From contig OZ022589.1 in assembly GCA_963669155.1 (NCBI GenBank), positions 11,141,465 through 11,205,464 on the forward strand: 64,000 nt of DNA. Reading direction: 5' to 3'. Positions 2,261-25,047 of this stretch are shown here, piece after piece. Source of the DNA: Arbacia lixula (lineage: Eukaryota; Echinodermata; Echinoidea; Arbacioida; Arbaciidae). Each line of letters opens with the position of its first letter. Within the stretch, counting starts at the first letter, position 1. A program made the position numbers and the translations under genes. A model generated the notes under the pieces. It was not told the DNA's origin. It saw only the letters and a program-made list of their open reading frames with translations, and made no database searches.

Positions 2261-2576
2261 ATGTAAGTGACGTTCAGTTCTTATTCCTAACTCTTTTTTG
2301 TTTTCATTTATTTGTTAAAACAAATGTTTCACATTCAGCTATGCATTCTTCTCACAAAACAATATGATATGTATTCTCATCGTATTTACCATCTCTACTC
2401 CTTTTTCTTCACCCAGGGCGTTCTACAATCCCGTGGATATCGACCGTCTGCAGGCGGCGTCATCGCTGCTGTCACTCAACGTCGAATTCGCCCTGTCACC
2501 GATCACCGTCAAGACGTCTGAGCCAGACTTCAACAACTCGACACCAGACTGGAAAAACTCGCAGTCTAAGGGGTGA
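2261..2576 (+). pseudogene. zinc-finger copy 1, finger region deleted
   Basis: The 5' part is intact. Exon 1 ends in AT at 2261-2262 before a GTAAGT donor, and exon 2 begins at 2417 after TTCACCCAG, so splicing makes ATG GCG TTC TAC. The N-terminus (MAFYNPVDIDRLQAASSLLS onward) follows the intact copies for about 43 residues, to the EPDFN motif. Near 2,535 the sequence jumps to the last codons of the gene (CTCGACACCAGACTGG), removing about 780 bp, including the serine-rich linker and all four fingers. The junction shifts the frame, and translation ends at TGA 2574-2576 after 11 unrelated residues (about 54 in total). The C-terminal remnant carries the DTR variant otherwise seen only in copy 4. 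It could still give a short N-terminal peptide, but DNA binding is lost. Confidence 0.85.
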
Positions 2577-4215
2577 ACCAAGAACTTGGCTTTGGACCTT
2601 ACTTCTTGCCATCAATAATACATGGACTCATATTTCTTTGCCTCTATTGAAAAGCAATGTTGAAGCAATTTGACACAGTAATACATTTCTTGTATTGAAA
2701 TTCATAACAAAGTATCGTACTTCTGCTGTTGTTTTAATAACTTTCTGCGTGATATTTGTTTTTTTCTGCATTTCGTTAAAAATCAAGTCATTTAAAAATT
2801 CAGCCTTGTTTCAATACTCACTGTTGTTTGTTGTGCGATCTAGTGAACTAGTGAGAGCTGTATTGCCCGCGTTGATCGAGAAGAGATGATAAAATGAGAT
2901 GGGGAGAGAAAGGAGTGAGATGGTGAGAGAATGAGTGCGATGATTCCTGAATATGAGTCTGATCGATGTGACGGAAGGAAAACAGCTTGATGTAAAAACT
3001 GAGAAGATAATAACAATAAGCTCAACCTTTCCTCTTGTATGTCTCTCTCATGATGAGGTTGTCTCTTTTTTTTCTCCTTATTATTTTTTCTTTCATTTTT
3101 ATATCAATGTCATTTCTTTGCGCATCTCCTCTCCGCCCTCTTATCAATTCTTCCACGCACACGGTCAAGCTTTTGTCTTCTCTCTGTGTGTCCATATCAC
3201 GAGACTTGTGTATCTCTCTCTCTCTCTCTCCAACCCGCTCTCTCTCTCTTTCTCTCACTCTCTCTCTCTCTCTCTCTTTCTCCCTATCCCTCTGTCTCTC
3301 TCTCTCTCCCCCTCTCTCCACTCTCTCTGCTCTCATCATTCTCATTGTCTCTCTGTTATATAACCCCTCATTATTCTCTCTCTCTCTCTCTCTCTCCACT
3401 CTCTCTGCTCTCATCATTATCATTGTCTCTCTGTTATACACCTCTCATCATTCTCTCTCTGTCTCTCTCTCTCTGTCTCTGTCTCTGTCTCTCTCTCTCT
3501 CTCTCTCTCTCTCTCTCTCCACTCTCTCTCTCCACTCTCTCTCTGCTCTCATCATTATCATTGTCCCTCTGTTATATACCTCTCATCATTCTCTCTCCCT
3601 CTCTCTCTCTCCTTCTCTCTCTCTCTCTCTCCCATGTGTTAGTTTATGTATCTCCTCCATCTACCACTCCCCTTGTCTTCTATCATTTCTCTGCGCTTCT
3701 TCTTCTTCTCTATCACTGAACTCAATGTTTGAATTATAACATTTAGTACCCTCCCCCCTTCTCTCCATCAATATCATAACTCATATCTATCGTCCAATCA
3801 CTAAAGTCACGTGTTTAGTTCTCGAACCACTCGGAGAGTAGTCGTGATAGTTAGCAGGAAGAATTCATGTTTACTCACAGAATTAGAACTAGTTTCCTAG
3901 AAAGTTGACTTTGGATGGCTGTATTAGGTATTAGGAATTCCGAGAAATCAGAGAGAGTACATTGTTATTAAGTTAACGTATGGGTTTATTTCTGGTATCA
4001 CACATGAACGGCTCTAATGGTCTGGTCCCGTGTTCATCACCACTACCATATCAGGTATAAATAAAAGAGCTGCTACATTCCACCATTTAAATGTATATCG
4101 CTTTAATCCAAAATATAAGGGGAAAGGACGGTTTACACCGATGCAAAAATTATATATTTTACTTTTACAGCGATCCAAGGGGTAGATTATTGAATCATTT
4201 ACTGTTATCTAAATA
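2577..4215. other. 3' flank of copy 1, CT-rich
   Basis: No gene is seen. The segment matches, in reverse, the 3' flanks of copies 3-5: the GATGTGACGGAAGGAAAAC stretch near 2,967 and AATAAGCTCAACCTTTCC near 3,015 pair with 11,490-11,580, 17,590-17,660 and 23,530-23,600. Compound (CT)n arrays run from about 3,216 to 3,632 with an internal tandem unit (CTCATCATT..CATTGTCTCTCTGTTATA) at about 3,333, 3,410 and 3,549. Confidence 0.8.
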
Positions 4216-4217
4216 TC

Positions 4218-4650
4218 TTAAAGGGATAGTTCACCTTGAAGATGGGTTAGTTTCAATCAGAGAAAAAACAAGCAAGAAACATATTAGTGAAGGTTTAACA
4301 AAAACCCGTCAAAGGATAAGAAAGTTATGATCTTTTTGAAATTTCAATTTTGTGACGTCACGTGCGAGGTGGTCTCTCTCTCTCTCTCTCTCTCTCTCTC
4401 TCTCTCTCTCTCTCTCTCTCTCTCTCATATGTTGTGTACAGTATAATAGCATAAGTTGCTCTTCTTCTGTTTTTGACAACAGAATGAATTTGTATCTCTA
4501 ATAATGTATCAAATGCATAGGTAAAAGGGTGCATATCGTTTTGAGAAAATGCAAATTTTTGAGAAAAAAATGTACACGACATATGGGAGAGCACCTCGCA
4601 AGTAACGTCACAAAATCAAAATTTAAAAACTCATAACTTTTCTTTTCCCT
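4218..4650 (+). mobile_element. MITE family M (TTAAAGGGATAGTTCACC), right end truncated
   Basis: Starts with TTAAAGGGATAGTTCACCTT and continues with family landmarks: AGTGAAGGTTTAACA, GTCAAAGGATAAGAAAGTTAT, TGTGACGTCACGTGCGAGG and, inverted, GAGCACCTCGCAAGTAACG with AAACTCATAACTTTTC. A (CT)n run at 4374-4427 has expanded inside it. The terminal inverted repeat at the right end is missing; sequence of repeat family B begins there. No coding capacity, so a non-autonomous DNA element. Confidence 0.75.
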
Positions 4651-4662
4651 TTTTTTCTGTGG

Positions 4663-23324: not shown

Positions 23325-23435
23325 AGAAGAGAGAGAAGGGAAGAGAAAAGGAGAGAGAGGGAGAGAGAGAGAGAGAGAAGAGAGAGAGAGAGAGGGAGAG
23401 AGAGAGAAGAGAGAGAGAGAGAGAGAGAGACCCAA
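23325..23435. repeat. (GA)n microsatellite
   Basis: GA-rich array with GAGG interruptions, in the 3' flank of copy 5. Confidence 0.9.
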
Positions 23436-23768
23436 GAGAGAAGAAATATAGTGATATAAGAAGAAAGAAAAATAGGAGGAAACAATAGGAGATAGTCTTA
23501 TCAATAGAGAGACACATATAATAGGAAAAGTTGAGCTTATTGTTATTCTCCTCTCAGTCTTTCCATCAAACTGTTTTCCTTCCGTCACATCGATCCGACT
23601 CAATTTCAGGAATCATCGCACTCAATCACTCAACCTCTCGATCACTCCTTCCTCTCTCCGGCTCTCTTTCTCTTCTCTTTTCACTCAGAGCCGACAAGGC
23701 AGCCAGTACACTATATCACAAAGCAAACAACAGGAAAGTATTGAAACAAGGCTGAAATTTTAAATGAC

Positions 23769-23774
23769 TTTATT
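23769..23774 (-). promoter_or_regulatory. polyadenylation signal, copy 5
   Basis: Reverse-strand AATAAA about 180 nt after the stop codon. Confidence 0.6.
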
Positions 23775-23952
23775 TATAACGAAATGCAGAAAAATAAACA
23801 AAAACATCGCACAGCAAGTTTTTATCAACAATATCACAAGCACGATACTTTGCTTCAACATTGCTCTTCAACAAAGGAGAGAAAAAATGAGTCCGTGTAT
23901 TATTGATGGCAAGAAGTGAGGTCGAAAGGCAAGTAAGTTCTTGTTTCACCCC

Positions 23953-25047
23953 TTAGACTGCAAGTTTTTCCAGCCTGGAGTCGAGGACGTGCGTCTTGTA
24001 GTGTCGTTTGAGGTTGCCGGACTGCGCGAAAGCCCTGCTGCATCCTTCGTAGTGGCATCGGTAGGGCCGCTCACCGGTGTGCGTGCGGCGGTGCTTGGTC
24101 AGCGTGGACAGGTCGCCGAACCGCTGGCCGCAGTGCAGGCAGCCATACGGACGGTCGCCCGTGTGCGTGCGGAGGTGGGTACGGAGTGAGGTCCTCTGGG
24201 CGAACGACTTCGGGCACGATGGGCACTGGTACGGCCGTGCGCCCGTGTGCGTCCTCTGATGCGACGAGCGGTTGGACGCGCTGGTGAACTGCCTCGGGCA
24301 GAACCTGCAAGAGTAGGGCAGACCCCGATCAGCTGCCGGGAGGTTCGGGGAAGCGATGGTTGGAGAGGTCCGCTCATCCTCGCTACTTGATGAAGGGGAA
24401 GGTCCAAGGTTGACGGAGAGACCGGCAGAACCGAGGCGGTCGAGAGAGTTGCCGATAGACGATGACGGGGAACTCGCTGGAGATCTCATGTTTGAACCGC
24501 CCGAACACATCGAGTTCGTGCCTGGGGACCCAGGAGAAATCCATTGCTTGGAGTAGGAAGACGTCGATGACGATGACACAAGCCAGTTGACCACTGACGA
24601 GCGGCGAGATGCACTGGTGGTCGTCGTGCTTGGGGCACCAGTTCGCTGCTCACCAAGGCCTTCCTTCACACGCGTGTTACGAGCTTCCACAGGCGGGCAC
24701 AGCGGACAGTTGGGGACCCCGCACTTGAAGAAAGTCGTTGTCGCCAGACCACAATGGCGATTCCAGATGACAGATGCGATGGCCTTGTTGAAGTCTGGCT
24801 CCGATGTCTTGACAGCGATCGGTGACAGGGCGAATTCGAGGTTGAGTGACAGGAGCGAAGACGCCGCCTGCAGACGGTCGATGTCCACTGGATTGTAGAA
24901 CGCCCTGAGTGAAGAAAAAGGAGTAGAGATTGTTAATACCATGAAGATAGAATAATCATGAAAATGATGCATTGCTGACTGGTGAAGAGTAAATTTACTA
25001 GGAAAAGAAAAGTTTGTAATGTCCACGTGGAAGGAGCATACTTACAT
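23953..25047 (-). CDS. C2H2 zinc-finger protein, copy 5 (four fingers)
   Basis: CDS is the complement of 23953-24904 joined to 25046-25047, 317 residues. Split ATG as in the other copies, with a GTAAGT donor, so the unspliced RNA again reads AUG UAA. The intron is 141 nt. Four C2H2 fingers lie at about 198-306 with all ligands, linkers TGARP, TGDRP and TGERP; the C-terminus is VLDSRLEKLAV. The N-terminal Cys motif CGVPNCPLCPP is present. Differences from copy 3 are scattered in the linker (for example PIAVKT for PITVKT). Probable nuclear DNA-binding regulator. Confidence 0.9.

Follow-up and report, generated by a model that had tools for sequence, protein, structure and literature searches.

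A 64,000-nucleotide stretch of the Arbacia lixula genome (contig OZ022589.1, positions 11,141,465 to 11,205,464; the window hereafter) contains five copies of a zinc-finger gene whose start codon is predicted to be assembled by splicing. In all five, AT closes exon 1 and G opens exon 2, and the ATG appears only across the predicted splice junction; the junctions are called from sequence only, and it is from these calls that we infer their use in the cell. We consider it likely that this is a Krl-like cluster in which a phase-2 intron within the initiator codon is spliced constitutively, with the AUG-UAA of unspliced RNA arising as a by-product. The original prediction had placed AT and G at the exon edges of all five copies, which holds throughout, the spliced model giving ATG each time; the observation is largely correct, yet the gene structure is an ordinary one of a known kind.

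Each copy was oriented, and donors, acceptors and frames were then computed, with donors scored by a human-type matrix. The terminal letters of exon 1 are ATAAT and exon 2 opens with GGC after CAG in every copy, the acceptor CTTCAC(C/T)CAG|GGC being common to the five. The donor is AATGTAAGT in copies 1, 2, 3 and 5 (hexamer GTAAGT) and AATGTATGT in copy 4 (hexamer GTATGT). When positions -170 to +320 are scanned, the AT|GT donor scores highest in four of the five copies and second in copy 4. Predicted intron lengths are 154, 154, 141, 141 and 141 nucleotides in copies 1-5. The spliced model starts ATG GC(G/A) TTC TAC throughout; around its AUG every copy shows A at -3 and G at +4, a context that counts as strong under the Kozak rule. 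The parts of the five copies are as follows.

2102..2262, + strand: copy 1, TATA-like box to predicted exon 1 end (...ATAAT); extra ATGs at 2144 and 2213
2263..2416, + strand: copy 1, predicted intron (first base 2263), 154 nucleotides, GTAAGT...CAG
2417..2576, + strand: copy 1, exon 2 coding part (first base 2417), 53 amino acids, N-terminus only, tail out of frame
7365..7514, + strand: copy 2, TATA-like box to predicted exon 1 end
7515..7668, + strand: copy 2, predicted intron (first base 7515), 154 nucleotides; in-frame ATGs at 7595 and 7616
7669..8620, + strand: copy 2, exon 2 coding part (first base 7669), 317 amino acids spliced
13018..13158, - strand: copy 3, TATA-like box to predicted exon 1 end; extra in-frame ATG at 13121-13119
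12877..13017, - strand: copy 3, predicted intron (first base 13017), 141 nucleotides; in-frame ATG at 12944
11925..12876, - strand: copy 3, exon 2 coding part (first base 12876), 317 amino acids spliced; four zf-C2H2 stretches
19099..19241, - strand: copy 4, TATA-like box to predicted exon 1 end
18958..19098, - strand: copy 4, predicted intron (first base 19098), 141 nucleotides, donor GTATGT, no stop in the donor-AUG/exon 2 frame
18006..18957, - strand: copy 4, exon 2 coding part (first base 18957), 317 amino acids spliced; 364 from the donor AUG when unspliced
25046..25188, - strand: copy 5, TATA-like box to predicted exon 1 end
24905..25045, - strand: copy 5, predicted intron (first base 25045), 141 nucleotides; in-frame ATGs at 24972 and 24942
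23953..24904, - strand: copy 5, exon 2 coding part (first base 24904), 317 amino acids spliced

Copies 1 and 2 lie on the + strand and copies 3, 4 and 5 on the - strand, the repeat units of copies 3-5 being spaced 5.9-6.1 kb apart. Splicing gives a finger protein of 317 amino acids in each of copies 2-5. The copy 3 protein (the one tested) matches Pfam zf-C2H2 (PF00096) in four stretches, at 63.4 bits against a cutoff of 25.2; a search of PDB sequences with it matched 196, of which the best 60 are all C2H2 zinc-finger proteins, and its tblastn matches in the window (E up to 1e-3) fall at the five copies only. Among viral contigs, three stretches fit its peptide pattern, and tblastn found a relative in none of the three. 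NCBIfam, which is prokaryote-oriented, gave no match for the three proteins searched (3/3), nor did Rfam at gathering thresholds for the window.

Exon 2 aligns without gaps among copies 2-5, at 93-97% identity over the six pairs. The ratio of nonsynonymous to synonymous divergence (dN/dS) is 0.17-0.33 in all six, and dN in the finger region is 0-0.008. The 317-amino acid frame is under purifying selection and is real. Together with the donor score and the AUG context, this selected frame makes a main ATG existing only in spliced RNA well supported by the sequence, as a prediction. Five independent occurrences of the split ATG were considered and rejected, the copies being paralogues: they count as one event because exon 2 is 93-97% identical among copies 2-5, copy 1 being a relative in shortened form. 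The intron position would most simply have been inherited, once.

Copy 1 (2102-2640, +) is a fingerless remnant that retains the conserved N-terminal motif and has a promoter without CTTTGAT. Its spliced product of 53 amino acids joins the N-terminal part straight to the 3′ end, out of frame, and lacks the fingers; it could be a pseudogene or encode a small product consisting of the N-terminus only. The motif, at the exon 2 start of all copies (MAFYNPVDIDRLQAASSLLSL), resembles what we take to be a Sin3-interaction amphipathic helix (AAxxL).

The AT of exon 1 plus the donor was said to read AUG-UAA in copies 1, 2, 3 and 5, and it is indeed present in those four, overlapping the donor; copy 4 does not have it. 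After AT, a GTRAGT donor admits only two readings, AUGUAA (GTAAGT) or AUGUGA (GTGAGT), and the start-stop is therefore no evidence of selection for one, being forced by the donor; it comes as a side effect of placing a GTRAGT donor in phase 2. Overlaps of ATG with a GTRAGT string are frequent in any case: AT precedes 8 of the 51 GTRAGT strings on both window strands, four of these eight being the donors of copies 1, 2, 3 and 5. A study of Yarrowia introns states that retention of a phase-2 intron whose donor is GTGAGT or GTAAGT gives a stop in every case (PMC2911113). In the introns described there XY|GTRAGT reads XYG-TRA, as ATG-TAA does here; unlike those, the Arbacia intron interrupts the start codon, and retention leaves a bare AUG-stop rather than a truncated protein.

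Translation had also been predicted to depend on removal of the intron, and this does not hold strictly. Each intact copy has an in-frame intronic AUG that is open through the acceptor into exon 2 (copy 2, 7595; copy 3, 12944; copy 4, 19025; copy 5, 24972), at +80 in copy 2 and +73 in copies 3-5, with G at -3 and products of 339-341 amino acids that include the zinc-finger frame; further in-frame intronic ATGs lie at 7616 (copy 2) and 24942 (copy 5). In copies 3 and 5 the donor UAA is the sole stop of the intron in the exon 2 frame. The copy 4 intron (18958-19098, -) is 141 nucleotides long, a multiple of three, its donor lacks the UAA, and the exon 2 frame has no stop in it; unspliced RNA of this copy reads 364 amino acids from the donor AUG, retention adding 47 residues. 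Because these intronic AUGs, and the donor AUG of copy 4, open into exon 2, splicing is no absolute requirement for the finger frame.

The open intron frames are themselves no sign of design, since, when each of the five introns was shuffled 2000 times by dinucleotides with its ends preserved, the exon 2 frame showed no further stop in 14-27% of the shuffles and an open in-frame ATG in 19-24%. Among copies 3-5 the introns diverge by 5-9%; that of copy 2 differs from these three by 14-16%, with 19 gap columns; the synonymous divergence dS is 0.07-0.11 and 0.14-0.19 for the same comparisons. Since intron divergence is about the synonymous divergence, there is no indication of hidden coding or of a conserved element in the intron. 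Hidden coding was rejected as an account of the open frames on both grounds, the shuffle frequencies and the near-synonymous rate.

The explanation we favour is that these zinc-finger genes, nearly identical and clustered in tandem and inverted order, share by descent a single short first intron that separates AT from G in the initiator codon (phase 2). The spliceosome would remove it constitutively, building the main AUG at the junction, where its context is strong. Unspliced RNA would then unavoidably carry AUG-UAA, at most a passive fail-safe that makes intron-retaining RNA poorly productive, and such RNA may be held in the nucleus or poorly translated. It would be no absolute block, because the intronic in-frame AUGs, and the donor AUG of copy 4, open into the same frame.

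Three observations weigh against this explanation. The AT|GT donor of copy 4, at 4.76, is outscored by a site that precedes the TATA-like box (5.18); AT|G is kept in 5/5 copies, which would be expected equally if it were functional; and exon 1 of every copy contains an acceptor-like sequence, CTTGCAG|TC, because of which exon 1 is perhaps not the first exon. The last belongs to an alternative, partly compatible with constitutive splicing, under which exon 1 is not the true 5′ end or is partly translated (through a different cap site, a preceding exon spliced to CTTGCAG|TC or, in copy 3, an upstream in-frame AUG), making an N-terminally extended protein that would have a start besides the split ATG. 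Ahead of that codon no stop interrupts the exon 1 frame for 21-59 codons, in keeping with such an extension, and copies 3 and 1 have in-frame ATGs that would give 351 and 69 amino acids. Exon 1 had been thought to hold no other ATG in the intact copies. From 20 nucleotides past the TATA-like box to the donor, the split ATG is the sole ATG in copies 2, 4 and 5, as claimed; copy 3 departs from this with its in-frame ATG at 13121 (13121-13119, -), 104 nucleotides before the donor and at TATA+37, unless transcription begins downstream of it. In copy 1 the extra ATGs are at 2144 (a 17-amino acid frame) and 2213 (the one in frame). Against an extended protein, the context of the copy 3 ATG is poor (C at -3, T at +4) and it lies a few nucleotides from the expected cap; exon 1 indels among the copies (11 and 1 nucleotides) are not multiples of three, unlike those of coding sequence; and the TATA-like TTTAAATA stands 141-161 nucleotides upstream of the donor in 5/5 copies, which would fit a cap site within exon 1 by the rule that capping is expected some 30 nucleotides after a TATA element. 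We regard this alternative as unlikely.

Regulation by the start-stop, which the original prediction implied, finds no support: the AUG-UAA is forced by the donor, the unspliced RNA of the intact copies keeps an in-frame AUG, and copy 4 has no start-stop. A splicing-gated translation switch would keep the protein off by AUG-UAA while the sole intron is retained and turn it on by stage-specific removal. It could draw on the AUG-UAA at four of five donors, and on the spliced model of copies 2, 4 and 5 having no AUG before the split one; it has to face the same donor consensus and the same copy 4, an intronic AUG (G at -3) opening into the whole zinc-finger frame in 4/4 intact copies, and an intron that diverges at about the synonymous rate. 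A regulated switch is possible, at a probability we put very low; nothing found favours it. Selection of AUG-UAA as a minimal start-stop that stalls ribosomes, as in Arabidopsis NIP5;1, seems to us scarcely credible. The hexamer AUGUAA is identical, and at NIP5;1 ribosome stalling at it triggers mRNA decay (PMC11915504). The NIP5;1 element belongs to the 5′ untranslated region of mature mRNA; here AUGUAA occurs in unspliced RNA only, overlapping the donor, and is lost from the predicted spliced RNA. The donor alone explains it, and copy 4 does without it.

A further conjecture, to which we give only a slender chance, is that initiator-codon splicing in this array acts as a gate on protein output while the early embryo is cleaving rapidly and that copy 4 (GTATGT, no in-frame stop) is no longer gated, the factor being encoded by its spliced as well as by its unspliced RNA, the latter with a 47-residue N-terminal extension. 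If true, neighbouring paralogues would form a natural comparison of gated and ungated genes; more generally, if splicing did gate translation, paralogues with and without the start-stop would test the gating directly. The array offers a clean candidate case of a multicopy regulator in an animal with its start codon split by an intron. Gene finders that seek an unbroken ATG could miscall such genes.

Introns that split or abut the start codon are a known class, for which Yarrowia lipolytica is a precedent in kind from a distant organism: 42 of 2421 plotted introns have a donor within or right after the start codon (PMC13309789). In these the donor lies at the initiator codon, as here, and introns retained there often have early stops; unlike the Arbacia introns, the 42 include donors that follow the whole ATG and do not split it (PMC13309789). 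The Arbacia case differs further in being an animal gene family with one inherited position, known from sequence alone. Literature searches on split start codons, at the level of titles and abstract openings and with subscription papers largely outside their scope, brought no report to notice among the papers listed, which is not proof that none is published; searches on Krl copy number and gene structure, with the same gap for subscription papers, brought to notice, among the papers listed, no account of either and no split-start arrangement in Krl. A literature search for ribosomal protein genes as a comparison gave no match.

The family is, we presume, the sea-urchin early zygotic gene Krl, whose member SpKrl was reportedly described by Howard et al. 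in 2001. The four zf-C2H2 stretches of copy 3 would agree with the finger number that we take SpKrl to have. Promoter elements were read as TATA, initiator (Inr), TCF and Sox motifs; we take CTTTGAT to be a TCF-type motif and ATTGTT a Sox-type one. At about -226 to -141 relative to the donor, CTTTGAT starts 39 nucleotides before ATTGTT in the promoters of 4/4 intact copies (2-5), and ATTGTT starts 37 nucleotides before the TATA-like element, again in 4/4. CTTTGAT has 22 occurrences on both window strands, and its promoter copies are paralogous; it is absent from the copy 1 promoter, in which ATTGTT lies elsewhere, at -246. A TCF-type CTTTGAT in all four intact promoters would suit a beta-catenin target, as we assume SpKrl to be. 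This motif layout fits the Krl identity without proving it. Krl expression is highest in early blastula, according to one report (PMC3492025).

Several other features of the window were noted. Two open frames lie beyond the array. That at 51446-52408 (-), of 320 amino acids, has what looks by eye like a signal at its start and, close to the C-terminus, a hydrophobic stretch; its only Pfam hit is a sub-cutoff MxiM (15 bits against 25), and NCBIfam gave no match. That at 54067-54921 (+), of 284 amino acids, is acidic and charged, with no match in Pfam (E up to 0.1), NCBIfam or PDB sequences; its end may resemble nucleolar MIF4G-domain proteins. The stretches at 4220-4650 and 6370-6860 are similar, both start with AAAGGGATAGTTCACC, and look like a dispersed repeat. 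Tandem repeats with units of 150-174 nucleotides and 94-96% matches occupy 56890-57690, where GC skew is high and both strands have open frames.

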